Shown here one piece after another: positions 5,986 through 27,761 of a DNA stretch of 29,027 nt. The DNA is from a virus, in the IMG/VR virus record IMGVR_UViG_3300038962_000103, positions 1 to 29,027 of that record. The stretch is one strand, 5' to 3'. The stretch's first letter is position 1. Each line of letters begins with the position of its first letter. The notes under the pieces are model-generated. The model was not told where the DNA came from. It worked only from the letters and a program-made list of their open reading frames with translations, and did no database searches. Position numbers and translations under genes: made by a program.

Positions 5986-7923
5986 ATGGCATCAATAATA
6001 GAGCGATTAAGAAATTACATTTCAAAAAACGCACAACAAACACATCTTGATTTTAACAAAGCAATTTACAATTATTTAGGCGATTCAATTGTTTGGAATC
6101 CTGAAAATGATGATACTTATATTAATAAGGGTTATCGTTATAATTCAACAATTTATTCCCTAATTAATTTAATTACTAAAACTGCAACAAATATTCCTTT
6201 TCAGGTTTATGAAATTCAAAATGATAATGATTTAAAAAAATATAAATCACTTTTTAGTGGTGATATAAATTCAACATCTTTACATAATGCAAAAATCTTA
6301 CAAAAAAAGGCATTGATTGAATTAAATAATACTGAATTGCATGAATTATTAAATCGCCCAAATCCAAATCAATCTTATACATCATTTATTTCTGAAATTG
6401 TGGCTTTTGGAAAATTAACAGGAAACAGATATATTTACGGTATTTCACCCGATACAGGAATTAATAAATCTAAATACAAAGAACTTTATGTTTTGCCAAG
6501 CCAAGCCATTGAAATAAATTCAGGTGGTTTATTTGAACCTGTAAAAAGTTTTTCTTTGTCTTATAATGGAACACATAAAATTGATGCTGATAATGTTTGT
6601 CACATTAAAGATTTTAATCCTTATGTTGACGGTACTGGTTCACATTTATATGGTATGTCACCATTAAAGGCAGGATTAAGAACAATGACCGCAAACAATG
6701 AAGCACTAACAACTGGCGTTAAATATTTGCAAAATCAAACAGCGAGGGGGGTACTTATGAGCGATGAGGGTGATTTGAATGAAATACAAGCACGTCAATT
6801 AAAAGAAAAATTCAAACAACAATATCAGGGTTCATCAAATGCAGGTGATGTTATAATTACGCCAAAAAAATTATCATGGGTAAATTTTGGTTTAAACGCA
6901 TCAGATTTATCATTAATAGAACAATATAATGCATCAATTAAAGATTTATGTAATATTTATAATGTACCAGTTCAACTTTTAAACAACACTGAATCAACTA
7001 CATATAATAATATGCGTGAAGCTAAAAAAGCATTATATCAAAATTCAATTATTCCTGAATTAAATAAAATTAGAGATGAATTAAACAGATGGTTAACACC
7101 ACATTATGGCGATAAATTATATATTGATTTTGATTATACTGTAATTCCTGAATTGCAAGAAGAACAAGAAAAAGTTGTTGATCAAATGACAAAGGCATGG
7201 TGGTTAACGCCAAATGAAAAACGTTCAATAATGAGTTATGGAATTATTGAAGATGAAAAACTTGATGATTTGTTTATTCCCGCAAATTTATTACCAATAA
7301 ATCAAGATGATATTGATTTTGATGCTAAAAAAATAGATATTGATGTAAATGAAATTTTAGATAAACAAACAAAAACGCAAGTCACTGGACGCCCGAATGT
7401 TTTTACTACAATTACTGAGGCTATTGACAGGGCAAGGGAACTTGGTGGTGATGGTTATCATTCTATGATTATAAATGGAACAACTGTTTATATGCCATTT
7501 GATTCACATCAAGAATTTGAAAATATTATGACAACTAATGTTGAAAATGATCCACAACTTGATTCGTATGACAATAATGATGATGATGATAAAACTTTAA
7601 TAACAAAAGAAACTAAATTTAATGATTATCCACAAACCGCGACAAATAATTGTAGGCGAATGATTGATTGGAAAAATAATTTTAAGTTAAAAGGAATAAA
7701 AAAAGATTATTTAGAATTATCTGAAAAAATATCAAAAAGACAATATTTAAATTTAGAAGATTTAAAGAAAATTAAATTAATTTTAGATAAACAAAAAAAC
7801 CATTTTATAATTGAAAAAAAATATCATAAAACACCACATCTTGATAAAAAATATTTTAAAACTAATTTATTAGGTGGTGAATCAATGTATAATTGGATTA
7901 TTAAAATTGTTGAAAATGTTTAA
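5986..7923 (+). CDS. Portal protein with extra C-terminal domains
   Basis: The first ~440 of 645 residues match HK97-family portals: NSTIYSLINLIT near 53, LLNRPNPNQSYTSF (121-134), LTGNRYIYG, and IYNVPVQLLNNTEST (324-338) with the following NMREAKKALYQNSIIPEL helix. The dodecameric portal forms the DNA channel at one head vertex. Two further segments follow. Residues ~468-515 (EAIDRARELGGDGYHSMIINGTTVYMPF) look like a small beta module. Residues ~546-645 open with DYPQTATNNCRRMIDWK and close with LLGGESMYNWIIKIV, resembling a module I associate with other phage and prophage head proteins (YP.aat.NAkral.W...GGl.WdaW), here diverged and lysine-rich. Asp/Asn-rich linkers separate the parts. The extension may bind another head component; this is inference. 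Confidence 0.88.
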   Translation: MASIIERLRNYISKNAQQTHLDFNKAIYNYLGDSIVWNPENDDTYINKGYRYNSTIYSLINLITKTATNIPFQVYEIQNDNDLKKYKSLFSGDINSTSLHNAKILQKKALIELNNTELHELLNRPNPNQSYTSFISEIVAFGKLTGNRYIYGISPDTGINKSKYKELYVLPSQAIEINSGGLFEPVKSFSLSYNGTHKIDADNVCHIKDFNPYVDGTGSHLYGMSPLKAGLRTMTANNEALTTGVKYLQNQTARGVLMSDEGDLNEIQARQLKEKFKQQYQGSSNAGDVIITPKKLSWVNFGLNASDLSLIEQYNASIKDLCNIYNVPVQLLNNTESTTYNNMREAKKALYQNSIIPELNKIRDELNRWLTPHYGDKLYIDFDYTVIPELQEEQEKVVDQMTKAWWLTPNEKRSIMSYGIIEDEKLDDLFIPANLLPINQDDIDFDAKKIDIDVNEILDKQTKTQVTGRPNVFTTITEAIDRARELGGDGYHSMIINGTTVYMPFDSHQEFENIMTTNVENDPQLDSYDNNDDDDKTLITKETKFNDYPQTATNNCRRMIDWKNNFKLKGIKKDYLELSEKISKRQYLNLEDLKKIKLILDKQKNHFIIEKKYHKTPHLDKKYFKTNLLGGESMYNWIIKIVENV

Positions 7924-7925
7924 TA

Positions 7926-8789
7926 ATGTTAAGAAAACAATTACTAAAAAAAATTAAATCAAATTGGATTAAAGAATTTGATAAACAATTATTAATTGCT
8001 GAACGTATTGAATTAAAAAATGCGTTGAAATATTATAAAACAGAATATAAAAAATCTATTGACTTATTTTTACAAAATAAAACCATTAATGGATTTAATG
8101 ATTTATTTTTAATTAGAGATTTCAAAAGACTTTACGAAAATATTTATGTTAATGTTGGATTAAGATTTGCAAAATGGTATGCTAAAAATTTTCGTTTATT
8201 CATAAAAAAAGATATTAATATTGCTAAATATGAAACGATTTGGCTTGAAAAATTTCAAAATATTGCACAAATAGTTGGTGCTGAAAGGGTTACACTTGTA
8301 CAAGGTACTGCAAAAGAAACATTAAAAAAAGTATATAAAAAATTAATGCGTGATCCTGAATTTATGGTTTTAAATGAAAGGGTATCAGCTCCAATTTTAC
8401 AATCACAATTTAATAAGTATTCAGTATCACAAGCTAAAAGACTAATTAGAACTGAATCAACTTTTGCCGCTAATTTTGCAACACATTTAAGTGCATCTGA
8501 TATTTTTGATAAAAATCAATTACAAAAGGAATGGATCACAGCAATGGATGAAAGGGTCAGATCATCACATGCAAATGCTCATGGTCAAATTGTTGATTTT
8601 GACAAATCTTTTAGGGTGGGGGGTGAGTTTTTATTCGTTCCCGGTGATAAAAGTGGTTCAGCTTCAAACATTATAAATTGTAGATGCCAATCTGCACCAT
8701 TTCCAAAACCCGATGAATATGATGCAAGTACAAATGAATTTTTAAGTACGGTTGCAATTTCAGTTGCCCTTACTGATGATGAAAATTAA
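7926..8789 (+). CDS. Head morphogenesis protein (Mu F / SPP1 gp7 family)
   Basis: A 287-residue protein directly after the portal gene (two-base gap). The C-terminal third has the family signature: RLIRTESTFAANFATH, then KEWITAMDERVRSSHANAHGQIV, a FxVGGEFLFVPGD strand, and NIINCRCQSAPFP. These residues are the conserved R-T-E, D-x-R-x-x-H and NCRC blocks of the minor head family. The N-terminal half is long helices rich in Lys. In SPP1 the homologue binds the portal and is carried into the head in a few copies. A neighbouring protease and capsid gene fit the role. Confidence 0.88.
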   Translation: MLRKQLLKKIKSNWIKEFDKQLLIAERIELKNALKYYKTEYKKSIDLFLQNKTINGFNDLFLIRDFKRLYENIYVNVGLRFAKWYAKNFRLFIKKDINIAKYETIWLEKFQNIAQIVGAERVTLVQGTAKETLKKVYKKLMRDPEFMVLNERVSAPILQSQFNKYSVSQAKRLIRTESTFAANFATHLSASDIFDKNQLQKEWITAMDERVRSSHANAHGQIVDFDKSFRVGGEFLFVPGDKSGSASNIINCRCQSAPFPKPDEYDASTNEFLSTVAISVALTDDEN

Positions 8790-8813
8790 TAAATAATAAT
8801 ATTTTAAATTTAA

Positions 8814-9519: not shown

Positions 9520-10734
9520 ATGGACGAAAATGTAAAAAATCAACTTGATCAAATTGGCGATATAGTTGATGAAAAAATTGAAAAAGCATTTAATTCGGCA
9601 AAAGACAACGCAAAAGGTGAAGTTGAAACTTCTTTAAAATCAGAAATTTCAAATTTAACTAATGAGTTTAACGCCAAATATGAAGATGCTACAAAAAGAA
9701 TGGATTCAATCGAAGTGGAAAACAAAAAAGCACTTTCAAATGAATCATCAAAAACTTTCAAAGGCGCACTGCAAAAAGCATTTAAAGACGGCGCAATTGA
9801 TGGTTTAGTCAAAGGAAGTGCAAACGCATCATCTTTTGAAATAAAAGCGGACATGACTATGGCGGCGGATTATACTGGAGTTGTTGCAGGTGAAACAGTT
9901 GTTGGTGCGATCAAATATGATCCATCAAGATCACAACACATCAGAAGTTTAATCCCACAAGGTTCAACAGACGCACAAACTATTAGATTCCCAAAAGAAT
10001 CAGGGTATTCTGATAATGCGGCGGCAACTGCACAAGGTTCAGCACTTGGACAATCTGATTTTGATATTACTGCGACAAGCGTTAATGTTGAAAGAATTGG
10101 TACAACTATGAGAATAACAGAGGAAATGTTGAATGACACACCTCAATTATCATCATATTTAAGTGCGAGAGTGCCGGGCAAAGTTTTAGCGATTGAAGAT
10201 AATGAGATTATGAATGGTGATGGATCATCGCCAAATCTTGACGGTTTATTTACTGATGGAACTGCTTTCACAACATCATCAGGTGGTTTATTTTATCAAG
10301 CGATAGAATCAGCTAATGAGTATGATGTTATCGTTGTTGCACTAAATCAATTATCTCTATTAAATTATCAAGCGGATTCAATTCTTGTTAATCCTACTGA
10401 TTTACATAAAATAGTTTTATTGAAATCAACAGCTAATGAATATTTGAGACAGCAAATTTATACGGGGGTACAACCAACAATCATGGGTATTCCAGTTACA
10501 ACTAATACGGCTGTACCAAATGGTAAATTCTTAGTTGGAAATTTAGCACAAGCAACGCAGTTATGGATCAGAGAAAATTTAGCGGTATCATTTAGCCGTG
10601 AAAATTCTGATAATTTTGAAAAGAATTTTGTAACTGTAAAATGCCAAGAAAGAGTGGCATTAACTAATTATCAACCGAACGCAATTGTTCAGGGAACTTT
10701 CTCAACTGCAAAAACAGCTTTAGAAACTTCATAA
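9520..10734 (+). CDS. HK97-fold major capsid protein
   Basis: A 404-residue protein. Residues 1 to ~75 are a charged coiled coil, the delta-domain scaffold that the upstream protease would remove; cleavage probably falls between ~90 and 115. The rest matches HK97-fold capsid proteins: GETVVGAIKYDPSRSQHIRS, IPQGSTDAQTIRFP, VERIGTTMRITEEMLNDTP (E-loop and spine helix), IMNGDGSSPNLDGLF and MGIPVTTNTAVPNG. It forms the icosahedral shell. Codon use is richer in GCG, GCA and GGA than the replication genes, as expected for a highly expressed gene. A strong terminator follows. Confidence 0.95.
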   Translation: MDENVKNQLDQIGDIVDEKIEKAFNSAKDNAKGEVETSLKSEISNLTNEFNAKYEDATKRMDSIEVENKKALSNESSKTFKGALQKAFKDGAIDGLVKGSANASSFEIKADMTMAADYTGVVAGETVVGAIKYDPSRSQHIRSLIPQGSTDAQTIRFPKESGYSDNAAATAQGSALGQSDFDITATSVNVERIGTTMRITEEMLNDTPQLSSYLSARVPGKVLAIEDNEIMNGDGSSPNLDGLFTDGTAFTTSSGGLFYQAIESANEYDVIVVALNQLSLLNYQADSILVNPTDLHKIVLLKSTANEYLRQQIYTGVQPTIMGIPVTTNTAVPNGKFLVGNLAQATQLWIRENLAVSFSRENSDNFEKNFVTVKCQERVALTNYQPNAIVQGTFSTAKTALETS

Positions 10735-10756
10735 TAATAATTAGTATTATTGAATT

Positions 10757-10784
10757 AAGGGTGATTAATTTCACCCTTTTTTTT
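10757..10784 (+). terminator. Rho-independent terminator after the capsid gene
   Basis: An 8-bp perfect stem, AAGGGTGA (10757-10764) and TCACCCTT (10771-10778), with a 6-base loop, is followed by a T run. It would end the head operon transcript just after the most abundant head protein. Confidence 0.85.
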
Positions 10785-10825
10785 ATACCTATATCAATAA
10801 TTTATTTTAAATATTAAAAAATATT

Positions 10826-10855
10826 TTGTGTTTTAAAAAAAGTTTTATATATTTG
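10826..10855 (+). promoter_or_regulatory. Promoter of the small-ORF cassette
   Basis: TTG at 10826-10828 and TATATTTG at 10848-10855 are separated by 19 bases, matching both elements and the spacing of the Bacteroidota promoter (TTG, 19-21 bases, TAnnTTTG). It is the best plus-strand match in the window and lies 27 bases before the first small ORF. Confidence 0.65.
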
Positions 10856-10881
10856 AATATTATTAATTAAAAACAAACAAA

Positions 10882-11118
10882 ATGACAAAAATAAAAACTA
10901 ACGTAAAAAATAATAACTGGTCTTTTAAAAAGCCACATGTATTTATAACAATACATGAAACAATTATTGACAATAAATCATGTTTTTATATTAACAAATT
11001 AAATGACGGTTCTTATAATTACAATAGATTAATTATGTATAATTCAAGAATGTATAGTTTTAAATCAGCTTTAGAATATTACAAAGCACTGCAAAAAGCA
11101 AAATTAACATTAACTTAA
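10882..11118 (+). CDS. Small hypothetical protein, first of a paralogous pair
   Basis: A 78-residue basic protein that I do not recognise. Its C-terminal two thirds resemble the next gene's product: FYINKLNDGSYNYN against FFNVNKLSNGTYIYY, and SALEYYKALQKAK against LALEYYKELKEAK. It is thus one of a duplicated pair. The pattern suggests a short beta hairpin followed by an amphipathic helix. The leader AAAAACAAACAAAATGA is repeated exactly at the second gene. First gene of the cassette between capsid and connector genes. Confidence 0.75.
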   Translation: MTKIKTNVKNNNWSFKKPHVFITIHETIIDNKSCFYINKLNDGSYNYNRLIMYNSRMYSFKSALEYYKALQKAKLTLT

Positions 11119-11129
11119 AAACAAACAAA

Positions 11130-11336
11130 ATGATAAGAACACTTTACGTTATAATAATTGGGAGATTATTTTTTAATGTTAATAAATTAAGTAATGGTAC
11201 TTATATTTATTATAAATCAGTTATTAATAAAAAAATAAAAACTTATCGTTACAATTTAGCTTTAGAATATTACAAAGAATTAAAAGAAGCAAAACAACGA
11301 CTTTTTGAAAAAGATTCTGATTTATTTATAAAATAA
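11130..11336 (+). CDS. Small hypothetical protein, second of a paralogous pair
   Basis: A 68-residue paralogue of the preceding product, with the same N-K-L-x-N/D-G-x-Y hairpin and ALEYYK-E/A-L helix, then an extra KDSDLFIK tail. It starts 11 bases after its partner's stop. Its N-terminus is shorter and more hydrophobic (IRTLYVIIIGRLFFNV). Function unknown. Confidence 0.75.
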   Translation: MIRTLYVIIIGRLFFNVNKLSNGTYIYYKSVINKKIKTYRYNLALEYYKELKEAKQRLFEKDSDLFIK

Positions 11337-11351
11337 CTTAAATTAATAATT

Positions 11352-11519
11352 ATGTCAAAAAAAGAACAATTTCAACACAATTTAAAAAGAATTAAAAGTG
11401 AAAAATCTTTTAAAAGGGAACAACAAATTTTTCCAAAAAATGTTAAACTAAAAACGGGTTTAACAATTCAAAGGATAAATAAAAATGGAGTTACTAAAAT
11501 TGAAATAATAGATGAATAA
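11352..11519 (+). CDS. Small basic hypothetical protein (55 aa)
   Basis: An ORF of 55 residues with ATG at 11352, rich in Lys and Gln in the first half (SKKEQFQHNLKRIKSEK), then VKLKTGLTIQRINKNGVTKIEIID, which looks like a small beta sheet. No family recognised. Its 3' end overlaps the next ORF's start by eight bases. The close packing with neighbours supports translation. Confidence 0.6.
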   Translation: MSKKEQFQHNLKRIKSEKSFKREQQIFPKNVKLKTGLTIQRINKNGVTKIEIIDE

Positions 11520-11658
11520 AAAAAAACAATTTCTATTAAAATATTTTATTAATAATCCGAACATGGAAAATCCAAAAGAATTTATTGAAAATTTGGACAA
11601 AAAAATGTTAAATATTATGTATGAACGAGTAAAACAAGATTTAAATGAAAATAAATAA
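11512..11658 (+). CDS. Small helical hypothetical protein (48 aa)
   Basis: A 48-residue ORF whose ATG lies inside the end of the preceding ORF. The sequence (KKKQFLLKYFINNPN, then PKEFIENLDKKMLNIMYERVKQDLNENK) appears wholly helical and charged. It overlaps the following membrane-protein ORF by 14 bases. No function can be assigned. Confidence 0.55.
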   Translation: MNKKKQFLLKYFINNPNMENPKEFIENLDKKMLNIMYERVKQDLNENK

Positions 11659-11812
11659 AGATATATCTAAATACAATTTTTATATTATAAAAAAAGTTGA
11701 TGATCAAACTAATAAAAAAAGAATACAATTATTGTTATTATTCTCAATATTATTTTGTGTATTATTTCAAGTTTTATTTTTTTTATTCGCTCATTTATTA
11801 TTAACACCGTAA
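11645..11812 (+). CDS. Single-span small membrane protein (55 aa)
   Basis: A 55-residue ORF with a charged N-terminus (KINKDISKYNFYIIKKVDDQTNKKRIQ) and one long hydrophobic stretch from residue ~29 to 53 (LLLLFSILFCVLFQVLFF and on), ending LLLTP. It would insert once in the membrane with its basic N-terminus in the cytoplasm. It might act in superinfection exclusion or lysis timing; nothing proves this. Confidence 0.6.
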   Translation: MKINKDISKYNFYIIKKVDDQTNKKRIQLLLLFSILFCVLFQVLFFLFAHLLLTP

Positions 11813-11814
11813 AA

Positions 11815-11964
11815 ATGAAAAACAGAATTAGATTATACTTAATTGTCGGTTTTTTTATTTGGGGAATAAGATTGTCATATTATTTTCAATTATACATTGA
11901 CGGCATTTTAATGATCTTATTGTCTTTAATTATTTACGCAAATAAACTTGATGAAAATGGATGA
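11815..11964 (+). CDS. Two-span small membrane protein (49 aa)
   Basis: Starts at the ATG at 11815, two bases after the previous stop; the frame is open further upstream only by way of a TTG inside the previous gene. The 49 residues contain two hydrophobic segments, about 6-18 (RLYLIVGFFIWGI) and 27-42 (YIDGILMILLSLIIYA), with short charged ends. Together with the previous ORF it makes a membrane-protein pair in the cassette. Function unknown. Confidence 0.6.
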   Translation: MKNRIRLYLIVGFFIWGIRLSYYFQLYIDGILMILLSLIIYANKLDENG

Positions 11965-12100
11965 TATATTTGAATTATATTTAAAAATAATTTCACAAAA
12001 AGATATTCAACAACATTTAAATATGGGGGATCGTATTTTTATGAATAATATTATTTGTAAATTAGATAAAAGATTAAAAGAAATAAAAAATAGAAAATAA
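11951..12100 (+). CDS. Small helical hypothetical protein (49 aa)
   Basis: A 49-residue ORF overlapping the previous gene by 14 bases; ATG at 11951, with another in-frame ATG at 11957. The sequence is amphipathic and helical (DDIFELYLKIISQKDIQQH, then NNIICKLDKRLKEIKNRK). Its TAA overlaps the ATG of the next ORF (TAATGG). No family recognised. Confidence 0.55.
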   Translation: MKMDDIFELYLKIISQKDIQQHLNMGDRIFMNNIICKLDKRLKEIKNRK

Positions 12101-12222
12101 TGGAACGCCCTGCAACACCGCCCGATGATAAATCAGATTTTTATGAATGTGATTTTTGTGGCGAATTATCAAAAGAAAAATTTTGTGATAAAAATTGCGA
12201 AAATGCTTTTTTTAATGATTAG
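12100..12222 (+). CDS. Tiny zinc-ribbon-like protein (40 aa)
   Basis: A 40-residue ORF with four Cys: C17-x2-C20 and C29-x4-C34 within ECDFCGEL and KFCDKNCEN, preceded by MERPATPPDD. This spacing suggests one small structural zinc site, as in treble-clef or zinc-ribbon peptides. It is the last small ORF before a terminator. A DNA- or protein-binding role is possible. Confidence 0.6.
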   Translation: MERPATPPDDKSDFYECDFCGELSKEKFCDKNCENAFFND

Positions 12223-12247
12223 TTATCTTTAATGTTTGTTTGAAAAG

Positions 12248-12275
12248 CCCTTATCTTAATTGTTAAGGGTTTTTT
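12248..12275 (+). terminator. Terminator ending the small-ORF cassette
   Basis: CCCTTA (12248-12253) pairs with TAAGGG (12264-12269) and is followed by TTTTTT. An inner CTTAA/TTAAG pairing in the loop is a competing fold. It closes the cassette transcribed from 10826. Confidence 0.7.
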
Positions 12276-12277
12276 AT

Positions 12278-12285
12278 TATCTTTA
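12278..12285 (+). promoter_or_regulatory. Weak -7-like box before the nuclease gene
   Basis: TATCTTTA differs from TAnnTTTG only in the last base. It lies directly behind the terminator and 28 bases before the TTG start of the next gene, the same distance seen for other promoters here. Tentative. Confidence 0.3.
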
Positions 12286-12313
12286 CTTTTCATAAAACCA
12301 ATACAAATATTAA

Positions 12314-12688
12314 TTGGATTCCAATCAACGTGGCTGTTTAGCTGAATATCTATTTGCAACTGAATGCATTAAAAAAGGTTATAATGTTTCTATGCCTTTA
12401 CTGGATTCATCTATATATGATATGATTGTTGATACTGGAAATAAATTAATTAAAATTCAAATCAAATCAACAACTAAATCTCCCGATCGTGAAAATCATA
12501 AATCCGTACACATACCAATCCAAAATAATAAAAGGGAATATTTTAAGGATCAAATTAACTACTTTGCTATTTGGGTCAATTTCTTTAATGGTTTCTTTAT
12601 TTTTAAAAATACTGGAAACATGCAAAGCATAAGATTGTCATTAAATGGTAAAAATGCCAAATTTTTTAATAACTTTGCTTTTAAATAA
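12314..12688 (+). CDS. Freestanding PD-(D/E)XK nuclease, I-Ssp6803I-like
   Basis: The 124-residue protein must start with TTG at 12314: an in-frame TAA lies immediately before it, and the conserved N-terminus comes before any ATG. The core is NQRGCLAEYLFATECIKKGYN followed by YDMIVDTGN and KIQIKST, giving the catalytic set Glu11, Asp36, Gln49 and Lys51, a Q-x-K variant of PD-(D/E)XK. This pattern matches the group I intron endonuclease family typified by I-Ssp6803I (PDDEXK_5). No intron is seen around it, so it may be a freestanding homing nuclease or a Holliday-junction-type resolvase helping packaging. It sits between two terminators, apart from the head and connector genes, as a mobile cassette would. 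Confidence 0.75.
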   Translation: MDSNQRGCLAEYLFATECIKKGYNVSMPLLDSSIYDMIVDTGNKLIKIQIKSTTKSPDRENHKSVHIPIQNNKREYFKDQINYFAIWVNFFNGFFIFKNTGNMQSIRLSLNGKNAKFFNNFAFK

Positions 12689-12720
12689 TTCTTTAATTGT
12701 TTTTGGGTTTATTTAGGTTT

Positions 12721-12752
12721 TGCGCTGTTCTTCGGAATGGCGCATTTTTTTT
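12721..12752 (+). terminator. Strong terminator with UUCG tetraloop
   Basis: TGCGCTGTTC (12721-12730) pairs fully, with two G-T wobbles, with GAATGGCGCA (12735-12744) around a TTCG loop, followed by eight T. The UUCG loop makes this the most stable hairpin of the window. Confidence 0.9.
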
Positions 12753-12759
12753 ATCTTTG
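12752..12759 (+). promoter_or_regulatory. TAnnTTTG promoter box for the connector operon
   Basis: TATCTTTG begins at the last T of the terminator's T run and lies 24 bases before the ATG at 12783. The -33 region would fall inside the terminator hairpin. Confidence 0.55.
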
Positions 12760-12782
12760 TTTTATATTTAAATATTTATAAA

Positions 12783-12980
12783 ATGAAAAAAATTAAAATA
12801 ACCAAAAGCGTTTATTCAAGTTCAGGTTGGCGTAATGAGGGCGATATTATAGAACTGGACAACAAAACCGCTCAACATTATATTTCAAAAGGTATTGGCA
12901 TTGAATATAAAGAGGAAAAAAGAAAAAAAGAAACAAAAGAAGATAAGACTTCAAAAAAAAGAACCACAAAAAAATCATAA
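12783..12980 (+). CDS. Small basic-tailed protein at the head of the connector operon
   Basis: I start this 65-residue protein at the ATG at 12783, which has an A/T-rich leader and a promoter box 24 bases upstream; the frame stays open into the terminator, but that start would lie in the hairpin. Residues 1-45 (KIKITKSVYSSSG, NEGDIIELDNKTAQHYISKGIG) look like a short beta-rich domain found ahead of head-tail connector genes in other phages. The last 20 residues are almost all Lys, Glu, Thr and Arg. Function unknown; a structural or DNA-binding role is possible. Confidence 0.7.
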   Translation: MKKIKITKSVYSSSGWRNEGDIIELDNKTAQHYISKGIGIEYKEEKRKKETKEDKTSKKRTTKKS

Positions 12981-12983
12981 AAA

Positions 12984-13499
12984 ATGCCTGATTTAAAAAT
13001 TACTGCAACAAGTGGATCAGAAATTGTAACCACTGCAAACGCTAAAGATTTTATTAGAATTGATACATCTGATGATGATACATTAATTGCAACAATGATC
13101 AAACAAGCACGAATTTGGTGTGAAAATTATTTGACAAAAGATATTGTGGCAAAAACACGTCAATATTATCTTGAAGATATAAACAAACGATTTTCATTAC
13201 CTTTTGCGCCTATTAGTTCAATTACATCAATTACAGTTGAGGGTTCTGCGGCAACTTATGACACTTATGGTGTTAACGGCGATATTATTGAACTTGATGA
13301 ATTACCTGCAAAAGATATTATTGTCACTTATGTGACATCGGGTGTTGATACAGAATTATTGCAACAAGCGATTTTGCAATTAGTGGCAACGTATTATGAT
13401 AACAGATCTGATTTTATAGTTATGCAAGGCGTATCGGCTGTAAAAATCCCAAGCGATGTTAAAAATATTTTATCATCAGAAAAAACAATGTTTATATAA
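12984..13499 (+). CDS. Head-tail connector protein (HK97 gp6-like)
   Basis: A 171-residue protein with the gp6-like architecture: an N-terminal helical bundle (AKDFIRIDTSDDDTLIATMI then QARIWCENYLTKDI), a central beta part (LPFAPISSITSITV) and C-terminal helices (LLQQAILQLVATYYDNRSD). Such proteins form a ring beneath the portal. Gene order with the next three genes (closure, gp10-like, tail terminator) confirms the role. It starts four bases after the previous stop. Confidence 0.85.
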   Translation: MPDLKITATSGSEIVTTANAKDFIRIDTSDDDTLIATMIKQARIWCENYLTKDIVAKTRQYYLEDINKRFSLPFAPISSITSITVEGSAATYDTYGVNGDIIELDELPAKDIIVTYVTSGVDTELLQQAILQLVATYYDNRSDFIVMQGVSAVKIPSDVKNILSSEKTMFI

Positions 13500-13502
13500 A
13501 TA

Positions 13503-13832
13503 ATGGATTCGGGTAAATTAAATACAAGGGTTATTGTAAAAAGACAAACACAAACCGCTGATGGTTATGGTGGTTTGACATCAACCATTTCTGATTATGC
13601 AACAGTTTGGGCTAATTTAAAAGAAAAAAAAGGCGATATTAAATCAACTGACAGGTTTCGAGGGCGGTTTTTAGAAGTAGCATTGATAATGAGGTCAAAA
13701 ACAGTAGAATCAAAAATTGCTAATGATGATTATTTGCAAATACAAGGTATTTCAGGCGATTATAGAATTACGTCAATTTATGAAAGTCAACAAAAATATT
13801 TCACAACAATTGAAGCTATAAAAATTGACTAA
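13503..13832 (+). CDS. Head closure / head-tail adaptor protein (SPP1 gp16-like)
   Basis: A 109-residue all-beta protein. The opening GKLNTRVIVKRQTQTADGYGGLTST and VWANLKEKKGD are hallmarks of the head-tail joining family, as is the ending DYRITSIYESQQKYFTTIEA. It would plug the connector until the tail docks. The gene is three bases after the gp6-like gene and is adjacent to the gp10-like gene with no gap. Confidence 0.88.
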   Translation: MDSGKLNTRVIVKRQTQTADGYGGLTSTISDYATVWANLKEKKGDIKSTDRFRGRFLEVALIMRSKTVESKIANDDYLQIQGISGDYRITSIYESQQKYFTTIEAIKID

Positions 13833-14210
13833 ATGAAAAAAAATAATATTACAGTAAATAAAAAAGATTTAGCACAATTAAAAAAAAAATTTACAGAATT
13901 AAAACTTTTGGATAAAATTGGTTTAGAACAAGAAATTTCAAAAACAATAATGTTAAGTGCTAAAACAATGAAAAAAGTGGCACCAGTTGACACGGGTAAT
14001 TTAATAAAAAATATAAATTTTAGAATGCTACCAAATACAGTTGGTGAAATAAGATCGGAAGCACCTTATTCGGGGTATGTTGAATTTGGCGGTAATAAAC
14101 CAAAAAACGCAAATAAAATAATTCCCTTTTTTTTTCCAGTAGTAAGAAAACAAATAAAATTGTTAAACATTAGATTAAAAAAAAGAATTAATAAAATATT
14201 AAAACGATGA
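13833..14210 (+). CDS. HK97 gp10-like neck/tail-completion protein
   Basis: A 125-residue protein with the family's key block AKTMKKVAPVDTGNLIKNI (near 45-65) followed by GEIRSEAPYSGYVEFGG. The APVDTG and YVEFG motifs are typical of gp10-like virion proteins. It has a very basic C-terminus (KQIKLLNIRLKKRINKILKR). It follows the closure gene directly and overlaps the next gene in an ATGA arrangement. Confidence 0.87.
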   Translation: MKKNNITVNKKDLAQLKKKFTELKLLDKIGLEQEISKTIMLSAKTMKKVAPVDTGNLIKNINFRMLPNTVGEIRSEAPYSGYVEFGGNKPKNANKIIPFFFPVVRKQIKLLNIRLKKRINKILKR

Positions 14211-14644
14211 ATGAAGCGTTTCACCATATTAGAAAAAAATACATTGATCGTTTAACAGGTCAAATTACAATTTCAGGTTCAACAGTTCCTATTTATAACA
14301 GAATACCAAACGGCGCATCAACACCATACATTCGTATTTATTCACATTTACAGGATGAAATAGATGAAAATCAATCAAGTTACACAACCGAATGTGTGAC
14401 AAAAATAGAATGTTTTACATCATACATTTCAGATAATGGGGGGGAATATATTTTAAATCAAATTGTTGACGGCGTTTTAAATTTAGTTAGAACAAGATCA
14501 TCAGGATATATTGATTTAAGTTCAGAAGGTTTTAATGTATATACAACAACAATTGAACGTGTTAGATATTTAGAAGATTATGAAGATGACCAAACATGGT
14601 TTCGTGCAATTATTGAGGTTGCAAATAGAGTAGAAAAAACTTAA
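14207..14644 (+). CDS. Tail completion/terminator protein (DUF3168, SPP1 gp17-like)
   Basis: A 145-residue protein of the size, order and motif pattern of the DUF3168 family: VPIYNRIPNGASTPYIRIYSHL, a central CVTKIECFTSYISDNGG, then ILNQIVDGVLNLV and an aromatic C-terminal strand with DDQTWFRAIIEV. It is expected to cap the tail tube end that binds the head. Its start overlaps the previous stop by four bases. Confidence 0.83.
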   Translation: MNEAFHHIRKKYIDRLTGQITISGSTVPIYNRIPNGASTPYIRIYSHLQDEIDENQSSYTTECVTKIECFTSYISDNGGEYILNQIVDGVLNLVRTRSSGYIDLSSEGFNVYTTTIERVRYLEDYEDDQTWFRAIIEVANRVEKT

Positions 14645-14668
14645 TTTTAAAAAATTAAAAAAAACATT

Positions 14669-14803
14669 ATGAAAAATAAAATAATAAAAATTATAAATTG
14701 GTATAAAAAACAATGGTCAGATAATAGAAAAATAATGGGAATGATTCATTTATTTTTATCAGTTGTAATAATATTTGAGATTATAAAATTATTTATTAAT
14801 TAA
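14669..14803 (+). CDS. Small single-span membrane protein (44 aa)
   Basis: A 44-residue ORF with ATG at 14669 after a strongly A-rich leader. A basic N-terminus (KNKIIKIINWYKKQWSDNRK) is followed by one hydrophobic span (HLFLSVVIIFEIIKLFI). It precedes the endolysin and holin genes, so a role in lysis, for example a spanin or antiholin component, is possible by position only. Confidence 0.55.
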   Translation: MKNKIIKIINWYKKQWSDNRKIMGMIHLFLSVVIIFEIIKLFIN

Positions 14804-14814
14804 AAAATTAATTT

Positions 14815-15276
14815 ATGGCATATATAAGTGAACATATTTCATGGAATGAAGCTGTTAAATCTAAAACAGCGGAAAAATATGAAATTGAAAACATTCCTGA
14901 TCAAGATCAAATTAAAAATATGAAATTAGTGGCAAAAAATATTTTTGAGCCATTAAGATTATGGGCTAATGAACCTATCAGGGTTAATAGTTTTTTTAGA
15001 TCACCCGAATTATGTTTGAAATTAAAATCTAAAATTACCAGTCAACACACAAAAGGACAAGCCATTGATATTGATGCAATGGGTGAAAAATCTAATGCTG
15101 ATTTATTTGAATATATAAAAGATAATTTTTCATTTGATCAATTAATTTGGGAACACGGGACAGAATTATCGCCCGATTGGATACACGTTTCATGGGTTTC
15201 GCCAAATGGAAATAGAAACAGAATTTTAAAAGCTGTTAAAACAAGTAAGGGAACAAAATACGAATTATATGATTAA
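14815..15276 (+). CDS. Endolysin: M15-type zinc peptidase
   Basis: The 153-residue protein has the M15 (peptidase_M15_3) metal site: S-Q-H-T-K-G-Q-A-I-D-I with His78 and Asp85, and D-W-I-H-V-S-W with His124, plus Glu113 in IWEHGT as likely catalytic base. It would cut peptide cross-links of peptidoglycan. No signal peptide is visible, so export depends on a holin; the next gene, overlapping by eight bases, is a holin of the 3-TM family. Confidence 0.9.
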   Translation: MAYISEHISWNEAVKSKTAEKYEIENIPDQDQIKNMKLVAKNIFEPLRLWANEPIRVNSFFRSPELCLKLKSKITSQHTKGQAIDIDAMGEKSNADLFEYIKDNFSFDQLIWEHGTELSPDWIHVSWVSPNGNRNRILKAVKTSKGTKYELYD

Positions 15277-15649
15277 ATTATTATTAGGTCTTTTAAAAGG
15301 TGGCGATGGTCGTAAATCAGTTGCGGGAAATTTAGCTTGGGAAATTCGTGAAGCTATAAAAGGAAAAGAACTTGATCCGCAAAGATTAATTGAATTACAA
15401 TCAGAAATTAATAAAGTAGAAGCACAACACCGAAGCGTGTTTGTTTCGGGTTGGCGACCCTTTACGGGTTGGATTTGTGCGGTTGCATTACTTTATAATT
15501 TTGTCATTCGAGATTTAGCAATTTGGGCTTTTGGGATAGAACAAGTTCCCCCCGCTTTACAAATGGAACATTTAATGACGGTACTGTTTGGAATGTTGGG
15601 AATTGGTGGAATGCGAACTTTTGAAAAAATTAAAAACAAAGTAAATTAA
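15269..15649 (+). CDS. Holin, GTA/3-TM family
   Basis: A 126-residue protein with the family block F-V-S-G-W-R-P-F-T-G-W-I-C-A-V-A-L-L-Y (58-76), a second hydrophobic region (FVIRDLAIWAFG) and the closing LFGMLGIGGMRTFEKIKN (106-123). About three short membrane segments are predicted after a charged N-terminal helix. It would open the inner membrane to release the endolysin. Start overlaps the endolysin gene's end, a typical lysis pair. Confidence 0.88.
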   Translation: MIKLLLGLLKGGDGRKSVAGNLAWEIREAIKGKELDPQRLIELQSEINKVEAQHRSVFVSGWRPFTGWICAVALLYNFVIRDLAIWAFGIEQVPPALQMEHLMTVLFGMLGIGGMRTFEKIKNKVN

Positions 15650-15657
15650 AATAAAAA

Positions 15658-15801
15658 ATGAAAATATTAATTTTTTTATTATTTGTTTCATGTACCAAAC
15701 CGAGTTTAGAAATAGTATGCCAAGAAATTAAAAAGTTTTGTGAAGTAAATAGACAAGGCGAGAGAATATGTATAAAAAAAACAGAATGTAAAAATTTTTA
15801 A
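15658..15801 (+). CDS. Small lipoprotein, candidate outer-membrane spanin
   Basis: A 47-residue ORF starting at ATG 15658, nine bases after the holin gene. It has a signal sequence MKILIFLLFVSC with a lipobox-like FVSC, so Cys12 would be the lipidated residue. The mature part is about 36 residues with four more Cys (21, 28, 38, 44) and many charged residues. Size and place directly behind a holin fit an Rz1-type o-spanin; the family has little sequence conservation, so the function is inferred. Confidence 0.6.
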   Translation: MKILIFLLFVSCTKPSLEIVCQEIKKFCEVNRQGERICIKKTECKNF

Positions 15802-15939
15802 ATGGCAAGGCGGGTAATACAAACATATCAAAAAAAGAAAAGAAAAAAGCATAAAAAAATACATAGTAAAAACAGATCAAGATTAAAAACATCAAAAGGA
15901 TATAAAAAACCGCCAAACAGAGGGGGTAAAAAAAGATAA
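15802..15939 (+). CDS. Very basic 45-aa protein
   Basis: An ORF of 45 residues whose ATG follows the preceding TAA directly (TAAATGG). More than 40 per cent of the residues are Lys or Arg (MARRVIQTYQKKKRKKHKKI, then NRSRLK and NRGGKKR), with no acidic residue. It resembles a nucleic-acid-condensing tail or ribosomal-protein-like peptide. It lies one base before the next virion-type gene. Function unknown; a DNA- or RNA-binding or cell-wall-contact role is a guess. Confidence 0.6.
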   Translation: MARRVIQTYQKKKRKKHKKIHSKNRSRLKTSKGYKKPPNRGGKKR

Positions 15940-15940
15940 A

Positions 15941-16213
15941 ATGGCAAATGATTTATATAGCGCACATCAATTTCACAAAATAAGTTTTGGTGATTATGGT
16001 TTTAGAATATTAACAAATGGTGACACAAGTGTATCAGGGGAATATTTTTCAACTATTCAAGTTTTAAAAGATTGCACAATTTCATTAACAAGTGGCGCAC
16101 CAGGTGGTGATTCATCAATTACAAATTTAGATTTAGATGAGGGACAAATAATTTATGGAAATTTAACTTCAATATCACTTTCAAAAGGTGATGTAATTGC
16201 TTATTTAAGATGA
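15941..16213 (+). CDS. Small virion-like protein (90 aa)
   Basis: A 90-residue beta-rich, acidic protein: MANDLYSAHQFHKISFGDYG, then LTNGDTSVSGEYFSTIQVL and a C-terminal GQIIYGNLTSISLSKGDVIAYL. I associate this pattern with small structural or decoration-type proteins of marine phages, next to fibre genes. Its last bases (ATGA) hold the start of the next ORF. Confidence 0.65.
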   Translation: MANDLYSAHQFHKISFGDYGFRILTNGDTSVSGEYFSTIQVLKDCTISLTSGAPGGDSSITNLDLDEGQIIYGNLTSISLSKGDVIAYLR

Positions 16214-16347
16214 TTGGAATTGGTGTTGCTATAAAAACAAGTGGGAAAAAAATTGCTCGTTTTATTCAAAGGCGAATCGCCAGTTTTTTTTGGCAAACAA
16301 AAGATGATAAATATAATTTACTTGATAAAAATTGGGATGAATTATAA
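16210..16347 (+). CDS. Small hypothetical protein (45 aa)
   Basis: A 45-residue ORF overlapping the preceding gene by four bases (ATGA). The sequence begins MIGIGVAIKTSGKKIARFIQ, has RRIASFFWQ in the middle and ends DKNWDEL. It has a mildly hydrophobic start and a basic amphipathic helix. No family recognised. Confidence 0.5.
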   Translation: MIGIGVAIKTSGKKIARFIQRRIASFFWQTKDDKYNLLDKNWDEL

Positions 16348-16370
16348 AAATATCTTTATAAATAAATAGT

Positions 16371-16378
16371 TAAATTTG
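16371..16378 (+). promoter_or_regulatory. TAnnTTTG box before the fibre operon
   Basis: TAAATTTG followed by TA, 17 bases before the ATG of the first fibre gene. No -33 TTG at the right distance. Probably the promoter for the fibre block. Confidence 0.5.
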
Positions 16379-16394
16379 TAAAAAATAATAATAG

Positions 16395-17660
16395 ATGGGA
16401 ACTTCATTAACAGGATTAAAAATAAAAGATACTTATAAATCTTTAATAAAAGTTACAGATAACAGTGAAGCAACAACATCGGGAAAACAATTATCAGATG
16501 GAAATGGGAACGATTTTGGGTTATACGTTGATACAGATGGCGTCATTGGAGTCGGCGCACAAGCGGAATATTCTATCGATGCATCTTCTAAAAATGATGC
16601 AATTAGGTTACCAAGCGGAACAACAGGGCAACGACCAACTGGTCAATCAGGTATTGTTAGATATAATACTACTGAGAGCAAATTGGAATATTATGATAGC
16701 GGATTCAAATTAATAGCATCAGAAAGTTATGTATCTACACAAATTTCCAATTTAATTGATTCTGCACCTGCGACATTAGACACATTAAACGAAATTGCCG
16801 CCGCACTTAATGATGATGCAAATTTTAATACAACAATAACAAATTTAATTGCGGCAAAACAAGACACAATTACAGGGGGTGCAACAACAATTGTTTCATC
16901 TGATCTTACAGCGTCAAAAGCACTTGTATCAAATTCAAGTGGAAAAGTTGCCGTTAGTAGCGTTACAGATACCGAACTCGGTTATGTTTCAGGGGTTACA
17001 TCAGCAATTCAAACACAAATTGATGGTTTAACAGATAACAATACTACTTATTCAATTAGTTGTGTTGATGGTGATAATTCTGATGAAGAAAAAATTAGAT
17101 TAACCGCAGGGGGTTCAGGGAGTGGGACAGATGATATTGTACTTGAAGCGGGTACGGGATTAAGCATTGCAAGATCAAGTGATAAAATTACTTTTACAAA
17201 TACTCAATCAGGTGGTGGCGCATTTAACATAGTTACTGAAAATTTTAGTGGTGATGGTTCAGATACAACATTTGATGTATCAAATACAATAGCCAGTGAA
17301 AATAATCTTCAAATCTATATTGATGGGGTTTATCAATTTAAAAACACTTATTCAACAAGTGGACAAACGGTCACATTTTCAACTGCACCATCTTCAGGAT
17401 CAAGTAATATAGAAATTACACATTTTGTATCTTTGTCAGGAAGTCCAAATATCGAGGTTGAGAATGAAAGTGGAAATGGTTCAACAACGGCTTTCACATT
17501 AACAAGTGAACCCGCTACGAAAAATAATTTGCAAATTTATATTGATGGGGTTTATCAATCTAAATTAAATTATAGTGTTTCAGGAACAACGTTGACATTT
17601 ACGACTGCACCGCCAAGTGGCACAAACAATATTGAAATAACACATGTAAAATTATCATAA
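16395..17660 (+). CDS. Tail fibre protein with duplicated C-terminal domain
   Basis: A 421-residue protein rich in Thr, Ser, Gly and Asn. Known fibre motifs appear in order: RLPSGTTGQRPTGQSGIVRYN (71-91), TLDTLNEIAAALNDDANF (127-144) and AAKQDTITGGATT. At the C-terminus a beta module occurs twice, residues ~281-344 and ~354-418, both with NNLQIYIDGVYQ and an SNIEITH/NNIEITH end. At DNA level 22 bases are identical at 17316-17337 and 17538-17559. Such modules occur in fibres of marine phages and probably trimerise or bind the host surface. It is the first of four fibre-type genes. Confidence 0.82.
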   Translation: MGTSLTGLKIKDTYKSLIKVTDNSEATTSGKQLSDGNGNDFGLYVDTDGVIGVGAQAEYSIDASSKNDAIRLPSGTTGQRPTGQSGIVRYNTTESKLEYYDSGFKLIASESYVSTQISNLIDSAPATLDTLNEIAAALNDDANFNTTITNLIAAKQDTITGGATTIVSSDLTASKALVSNSSGKVAVSSVTDTELGYVSGVTSAIQTQIDGLTDNNTTYSISCVDGDNSDEEKIRLTAGGSGSGTDDIVLEAGTGLSIARSSDKITFTNTQSGGGAFNIVTENFSGDGSDTTFDVSNTIASENNLQIYIDGVYQFKNTYSTSGQTVTFSTAPSSGSSNIEITHFVSLSGSPNIEVENESGNGSTTAFTLTSEPATKNNLQIYIDGVYQSKLNYSVSGTTLTFTTAPPSGTNNIEITHVKLS

Positions 17661-26895: not shown

Positions 26896-26936
26896 TTTTT
26901 TTTTTTAGTTAATATTATAATATTTATTTTATACGA

Positions 26937-26966
26937 CTAATGTATTAAAATATTTTTTTAAATCAA
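26937..26966 (-). promoter_or_regulatory. Minus-strand promoter for the 38-aa gene
   Basis: On the minus strand, TTG (26966-26964) is followed after 19 bases by TACATTAG (26944-26937), one mismatch from TAnnTTTG, with exact Bacteroidota spacing. It lies 41 bases before the minus-strand ATG. Confidence 0.5.
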
Positions 26967-26976
26967 AAATTTTTTT

Positions 26977-26984
26977 TAATATTG
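26977..26984 (+). promoter_or_regulatory. Possible early promoter box
   Basis: TAATATTG followed by TA, one mismatch from TAnnTTTG, is 16 bases before the ATG at 27001. No -33 element was found. It is the only candidate for the early operon's plus-strand promoter. Confidence 0.35.
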
Positions 26985-27000
26985 TAAACAGATAAATCTA

Positions 27001-27198
27001 ATGATTATGAATAAATTTGAATTTGAATTTATAAACGATTTACAGGATTTAGAATTAACAAGAATAAAAGTTTGTAAAGAATTAAAATGTACTTTGCCAA
27101 CTCTAAAATCTAAATTAAAAAATCCTGATAGTCTAACTATAAAAGATATTAAAATATTAAAAAACCTAAAATTTAACCTAAAAACGTTAAAAATATGA
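27001..27198 (+). CDS. Small HTH regulator (Cro-like)
   Basis: A 65-residue protein; ATG at 27001, with an in-frame ATG at 27007. The region ELTRIKVCKELKCTLPTLKSKL (helix, turn, helix) followed by NPDSLTIKDIKILKNL has the layout of small XRE-like/Cro-like DNA-binding proteins. As the first gene of the early operon and divergent from the 38-residue gene it is the best candidate for a transcription switch. It overlaps the annealing protein gene by four bases. Confidence 0.7.
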   Translation: MIMNKFEFEFINDLQDLELTRIKVCKELKCTLPTLKSKLKNPDSLTIKDIKILKNLKFNLKTLKI

Positions 27199-27761
27199 AT
27201 ATACTTCAAAAATTAACTGCAATACAAACAAAATTAAAAGTACCAAAAACACGAAAAAATCAATTTGGAAATTATAAATTTAGAAGTGCCGAAGATATAT
27301 TGGAACATATAAAACCATTTTTAAAACAATATGACGCCAGTATTATTATTTCTAATAAAACTAAAGAAAAATGTGGTATGCCATACATTAGAGCAAAAGC
27401 AAAATTTTTTGACAATAAAAATAAAGACCAAAAACCAATAACAGCACGTGATGATGCATTTATTGATTTAAATCAAAAAGGTATGCAAATGCCACAAAAA
27501 TCAGGAACGGCGTCAAGTTATGCAAAAAAATATGCGCTTGGCAATTTACTATGTTTGGATGACACTAATGATTCTGATAGTATTAATAAATCTCCAAAAT
27601 TAGAAACATATCAATTTAATGAATTTATAAATAAATATAAAACAAAAGATAAATTAGATAAATTATTAAACACTGATAAATATATTTTAAACCAATCACA
27701 AATTGATCAAATAAAAGAAAAACTGAAAAATTTAAAAACAAAAAAAGTAATAAATAAATAA
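27195..27761 (+). CDS. ERF-family single-strand annealing protein
   Basis: A 188-residue protein with ERF features: an N-terminal helix (ILQKLTAIQTKLKVPKTRKN), the F-x-Y-K-F-R-S-A-E-D-I-L block (44-35 region, QFGNYKFRSAEDILEHIKPFL), and the glycine-rich SGTASSYAKKYALGNLL followed by acidic DDTNDSD. ERF proteins anneal single strands during recombination-dependent replication. The partner genes are an SSB-like protein and a PD-(D/E)XK exonuclease just downstream. The C-terminal third is lysine-rich and unconserved. Confidence 0.88.
   Translation: MNILQKLTAIQTKLKVPKTRKNQFGNYKFRSAEDILEHIKPFLKQYDASIIISNKTKEKCGMPYIRAKAKFFDNKNKDQKPITARDDAFIDLNQKGMQMPQKSGTASSYAKKYALGNLLCLDDTNDSDSINKSPKLETYQFNEFINKYKTKDKLDKLLNTDKYILNQSQIDQIKEKLKNLKTKKVINK

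Follow-up and report, generated by a model that had tools for sequence, protein, structure and literature searches.

What occupies the gap between the capsid gene and the connector genes of this phage, and why does it consist almost entirely of very small ORFs? The window, i.e. the whole analysed stretch of 29,027 nucleotides, encodes, in this order, primase/helicase, large terminase, portal, head morphogenesis protein, protease, capsid, an array of small ORFs, an endonuclease, a small gene, head-tail adaptor, head closure, neck, endolysin and holin, tail genes and tape measure. An initial, sequence-only reading described the array as a self-contained, moron-type cassette of eight accessory ORFs, with two membrane proteins and a four-Cys peptide, inserted between two terminators. 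The features of the locus, all on the plus strand, are as follows.

10757-10778, plus strand: terminator of the major capsid gene (8-bp stem and T run), left border
10826-10855, plus strand: Bacteroidota-type promoter-like site before the slot, by sequence match (TTG-N19-TATATTTG)
10882-11118, plus strand: o1, slot ORF, 78 aa, from an ORFan family common to o1 and o2
11130-11336, plus strand: o2, slot ORF, 68 aa, paralogue of o1
11352-11519, plus strand: o3, slot ORF, 55 aa, with weak similarity elsewhere apart from the sibling contig L086
11512-11658, plus strand: o4, slot ORF, 48 aa, mostly deleted in L086
11645-11812, plus strand: o5, core ORF 1 (family F0), a short polar part followed by a hydrophobic segment
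11815-11964, plus strand: o6, core ORF 2 (family F1), a small protein with two hydrophobic segments
11951-12100, plus strand: o7, core ORF 3 (family F3), a small, probably helical protein in conserved order
12100-12222, plus strand: o8, core ORF 4 (family F6), a 40-aa four-Cys peptide
12246-12276, plus strand: array terminator (fold of 12240-12280, -15.2 kcal/mol, z -5.1)
12314-12688, plus strand: PD-(D/E)XK endonuclease, 124 aa, TTG start, I-Ssp6803I-like (PF11645, E 1e-12; PDB 2OST, E 1.6e-8)
12721-12744, plus strand: terminator 3' of the endonuclease gene (fold -14.4 kcal/mol, z -4.4)
12783-12980, plus strand: small conserved gene preceding the head-tail adaptor and forming the right border (phrog_2616, E 1.5e-5), retained at the empty site of L034

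The array itself, as initially described, is real. Eight plus-strand ORFs of 40–78 aa cover 83% of positions 10735-12313 between the two terminators, and the minus strand of this stretch contains no ORF of at least 40 aa. In 1000 dinucleotide shuffles, the number of ORFs averages 0.46 and never exceeds 3, and coverage never rises above 0.29; with 8 ATG-initiated ORFs observed, the ORF density is far above chance. The array has the lowest GC content in the window (19.4% against 28.0% overall). Codon conservation among relatives, the check that the sequence-only reading had set, likewise indicates genuine ORFs: the median dN/dS of the core families lies between 0.2 and 0.38. The values for the slot families are mostly in the 0.15–0.6 range, and the single family at 0.9 is probably a spurious overlapping ORF. 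The two membrane proteins are o5 and o6, and the four-Cys peptide is o8, with all four Cys invariant in its family (10 sequences). In the o6/F1 alignment, F, W, D and M residues are invariant. Among the slot ORFs, o1 and o2 are paralogues (40% identity) that share an 18-nt leader, TTAAAAACAAACAAAATG.

The regulatory signals that had been noted around the array are also present. The capsid terminator folds well (10750-10785, -13.5 kcal/mol, z -4.8), and the array, like a moron, ends in a terminator of its own. Taken alone, the promoter match in the window carries little weight: the two strands together contain 11 full matches and 10.7 are expected, a frequency no different from that in shuffled DNA. 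Its weight comes from the conserved position in relatives, where a full match is found at the same place in 32 of 83 loci compared with 1.1 expected, these loci being related and thus not independent. The promoter form TTG...TAnnTTTG and the A-rich starts lacking a Shine-Dalgarno sequence would fit Bacteroidota, for which this type of start context has been described (PMC6847099). The phage group consists of Bacteroidota-type siphoviruses, the window phage being called marine-type. A capsid alignment run against a genome collection to find the host via prophages detected no relative, and a tRNA search of the phage found none.

How far the locus is peculiar to this phage can be gauged from 80 capsid relatives, 60 of which show the whole gap from capsid to adaptor. 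The small-ORF array and the PD-(D/E)XK endonuclease are present in this gap in 59 of the 60. The exception, L034, represents an empty site: within a 392-bp gap, the capsid terminator is directly followed by the small gene and the adaptor, and the endonuclease is absent throughout the L034 record, which may be incomplete. A further scan, based on the alignment of the endonuclease, raised the collection to 88 distinct intervals; given that the extra loci were chosen by the endonuclease, its frequency is to be taken from the first, capsid-selected set.

The conservation is unevenly distributed within the array. Family profiles F0, F1, F3 and F6, built without the window, recover o5 (E 1e-5, at the same position as in relatives), o6 (E 1.7e-16), o7 (E 3.5e-4) and o8 (E 1.3e-5; also phrog_35839, E 1.6e-7) as the best window ORFs, in the same order. 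In 19 of the 88 intervals, F0-F1-F3-F6 stand alone, with or without one more short ORF at the end, and the window array consists of four unassigned ORFs (o1-o4) followed by these four; o1-o4 thus resemble an insert placed between promoter and core. The array thus appears to be bipartite, with a conserved core, o5-o8, and an exchangeable, promoter-proximal slot occupied by o1-o4. An accessory region between capsid and connector, as initially proposed, is supported, L034 providing an empty site. The idea of a single self-contained moron peculiar to this phage finds no support in view of the constancy of the location and of the core, only o1-o4 being exchangeable; of the expected absence of the cassette from this junction in other phages, only the absence of the slot ORFs holds. 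Nor is position 12275, where the unit had been taken to end, an evolutionary border: the conserved endonuclease gene beyond it belongs with the array. This gene and the gene-by-gene swapping in the slot had both been missed.

The swapping is best seen between close relatives. Among 60 pairs with capsid arms at least 94% identical, 34 contain an unalignable block inside the gap with both flanks aligned; several of these pairs share loci and ancestry, so that the events are not independent. Most of the replaced blocks correspond to a slot ORF, exchanged from its start to its stop codon. In the 33 swaps that were measured, an ATG is found no more than 15 nt from 79% of the left edges (14% for random edges) and a stop no more than 15 nt from 62% of the right edges (13% for random edges). 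In L074 and L075, the difference is confined to the second slot ORF, and in a few pairs (among L029, L033, L042 and L046), the block starts immediately 3' of the capsid terminator and takes in the promoter region. Families of slot ORFs turn up again in backgrounds with very different capsids (L024, L121 and L141; L026, L137 and L005); isolated phages carrying the L024 slot gene were searched for, and none was found. Within about 6 kb upstream and 5 kb downstream of the gap, the only other recurrent swap affects the head morphogenesis gene (window 7834-8808; -2900 to -1926 from the capsid stop in relatives).

Variation of the same kind occurs in the window's own population. Contig L086 is 99.98% identical to the window over 5 kb (11632-16685), and its name carries sample number 3300039050, as does that of L004; the near identity suggests that the window comes from the sample of these contigs. 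In L086, a different 53-aa ORF replaces o2, the switch being at the o2 stop codon, and 148 bp (11484-11631, most of o4) are missing, so that most of o3 is kept and fused to the o4 tail. L004/L084 matches the window up to the last promoter base (10855), diverges and matches again within o1, with a 10-nt stretch in between unread. This switch probably gives o1 another N-terminus; a comparison of the alternative leader of L004 with known RNAs yielded no match. In these sibling contigs, an assembly error is possible because metagenome assembly is least reliable in and around the slot, where they end.

In the relatives, slot ORFs are commonly followed by a hairpin. There are 41 such hairpins in 35 intervals, located 5–20 nt 3' of slot ORFs, with a GNRA, UUCG or flipped loop and a distance from the stem to the next ATG of 9–24 nt (mostly 15–24). 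They comprise 23 distinct sequences in which pairing is kept by changes on both sides; at the two pairs beside the loop, three and five pair types occur. In the same loci, the 76 kb of slot region contain 48 hairpins (counted over a slightly wider region than the 41) compared with 0 in 612 kb elsewhere. None was found in the window's slot. The slot hairpins have no T run and covary, and are not terminators; in some unrelated phages, the same hairpin sequence followed by T is used as a terminator. We infer that the slot hairpins insulate or stabilise the downstream cistron; in Flavobacterium, secondary structure near the start tunes initiation (PMC6847099). The notion of a lineage-specific element was rejected, the exact sequence occurring in unrelated phages, often as an ordinary terminator. 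In L035, L054, L069 and L070, the loop is inverted (TTGC for GCAA) on an unchanged stem, and L083, close to L069, has the usual loop.

Is the endonuclease the agent of this exchange? The enzyme matches I-Ssp6803I (PDB 2OST). Its E11, D36, Q49 and K51 are invariant across 18 relatives, and these conserved acidic and lysine residues presumably belong to the active site. The gene starts at the same place in relatives, with a varying start codon. Conceivably, a free-standing PD-(D/E)XK homing endonuclease cuts phages that lack it at the capsid-connector gap and co-converts the neighbouring small ORFs. This agrees with the similarity to PF11645 and 2OST, with a match to the PADLOC 'homing endonuclease' model (E 1.6e-5), with the joint absence of gene and array from L034, and with homologues located at other sites in other phages, in some cases immediately preceding the large terminase, in others next to a holin and a Mom-like gene. 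Endonuclease and capsid divergence are only loosely related (Spearman 0.38), and alleles of close phages can differ sharply, as in L008 and L011, with capsid proteins 3% and endonucleases 48% apart. However, many swaps occur between phages with nearly the same allele, and identity resumes before the gene, so that classical plus-into-minus homing cannot account for them and the endonuclease does not explain the slot swaps. Furthermore, the gene has an intact reading frame in every relative read to its end and is under purifying selection (dN/dS 0.154), which is unusual for a purely selfish gene after fixation, and a group I intron around it, for which there is no Rfam match in 10500-13200, was rejected. 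Homing as the general explanation is therefore unlikely, although the endonuclease may move and may have founded the locus. In three phages (L152, L155 and L136), an endonuclease homologue lies right before the large terminase, and no such capsid was found in these phages.

The explanation that we consider probable is an accessory locus with a constant frame and an exchangeable slot that is filled by recombination and whose products are directed at the host. The frame, the slot, the ORF-precise edges, the empty site and selection on many of the ORFs can be read from the alignments. The frame would comprise the capsid terminator, the Bacteroidota-type promoter with its A-rich leader, the core o5-o8, the array terminator and the endonuclease, with the slot between the leader and o5, filled in the window by o1-o4. 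Slot genes would be exchanged whole by homologous, annealing-type recombination, with the common promoter and leader as the left border and a common intercistronic hairpin or the core as the right one, so that any incoming ORF would be placed under the one promoter, its start codon correctly positioned. The hairpin part of this scheme is drawn from relatives, the window's slot being devoid of hairpins. Recombination presumably drives the swaps, and an Erf annealase is encoded near the window end (27195-27761). The slot products would have the host as their target, most likely in countering defence or in takeover, and would form a repertoire that changes rapidly.

The evidence on function comes mainly from context. 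Comparison of o1-o8 with Pfam, PHROGs, PADLOC and NCBIfam recognised no anti-defence, exclusion or takeover gene, for which ORFans could still qualify, and comparison of the relatives' slot ORFs with Pfam and PHROGs revealed no known anti-defence gene. Relatives of o1 (54%) and o8 lie in the early region of phage L085, where the o1 relative is preceded by the same kind of promoter and followed by a GNRA hairpin and a small membrane ORF, with a four-Cys peptide and an exonuclease-like gene further on. This context suggests that the small ORFs might do early, host-directed work, possibly anti-defence or takeover, a proposition for which the case falls slightly short of balanced. Variability and position make anti-defence or host-takeover roles plausible, the membrane proteins could serve exclusion, and a part in the virion or in regulation is conceivable for the core. 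Predicted structures are of a confidence too low for fold comparison (mean pLDDT 49 for o1 and 48 for an L026 slot protein). A lysis role for o5 and o6 was rejected, given that the phage encodes an endolysin (14815) and a holin (15269) elsewhere.

The remaining alternatives to the frame-and-slot explanation are all improbable, to different degrees. That the small ORFs are fast-diverging virion or head-completion components would account for their place among head genes and for the conservation of the o6 and o8 families, and is improbable in view of the promoter-like site and terminators of the array, the complete replacement of slot ORFs between phages with 94–100% identical capsid arms, the early-region relatives of o1 and o8, and the lack of the ORFs at this place in L034. 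A strict moron, i.e. a transcription unit that is self-contained, of recent acquisition and found only in this phage, would explain the promoter-like site, the terminator, the low GC content and the empty site, but not a location and a core that nearly all capsid relatives, even distant ones, have in common, and is highly improbable. Spurious ORFs in an AT-rich spacer, combined with assembly chimaeras, would be compatible with 19% GC and with two sibling contigs ending near the slot; against the shuffle test, the dN/dS values, the conservation of o5-o8 and mid-contig swaps with ORF-precise edges in many samples, this possibility is barely credible.

Lambdoid morons are accessory genes with their own promoter and terminator, located between late genes. 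The locus resembles them in its promoter-like site, terminator, accessory look, position between late genes and empty site in a relative, but differs in its old, fixed location, conserved core and exchange of only the first part. The PeSL 'mobile regulatory cassettes' of T4-type phages (Arbiol 2010, Comeau 2014; described in PMC4503421) are similar in that short genes are exchanged in a plastic region, with spacer stem-loops as common borders. In a PeSL, the stem-loop is joined to an early promoter, whereas the array here has a single promoter for all its ORFs, and the 9–24 nt from stem to ATG leave no room for another; the spacer stem-loops are found in 35 relatives but not in the window's slot, and the phage type and host phylum differ. 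Nucleases at borders of genetic exchange and HEG islands (PMC10448857) and SegB amplification of anti-defence genes (PMC13096335) similarly involve a homing-type nuclease gene adjoining a variable accessory stretch near essential genes, but here a single PD-(D/E)XK enzyme is kept in nearly all relatives and the swaps stop before it. The anti-phage hotspots of P2-like phages and satellites (PMC9122126) share the fixed genomic position and variable cargo, whereas the cargo here consists of small ORFans of about 40–180 aa, with no recognised defence or anti-defence gene.

If the frame-and-slot explanation is correct, gathering the promoter-proximal ORF of the gap across many uncultured phages could yield a list of candidate host-interaction genes that are small, exchange fast and have known start and stop positions, and the swapping would probably let phages keep changing the genes they use against hosts. 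Shuffling of single genes at stem-loop borders, as known from T4-type phages, would then also occur in small siphoviruses of the Bacteroidota type and at a location among head genes. More tentatively, the locus might be a one-promoter expression socket in late phage DNA, in which host-directed genes are swapped whole and tetraloop hairpins act as standard insulators keeping the insert and the downstream genes translatable, the inserts forming a shared, rotating counter-defence library.

Two minor observations concern the promoter region. On the minus strand, an AT-rich promoter-like stretch (26897-27015) is 72% similar to 10782-10897 and is followed by a short minus-strand ORF with its own terminator-like hairpin. 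In a clade without slot ORFs (L016, L037, L078, L087, L091-L096, L109 and L114), a palindrome similar to TTTGGAATTTCCAAA lies across the promoter region, just upstream of core ORF 1, and is a possible operator.
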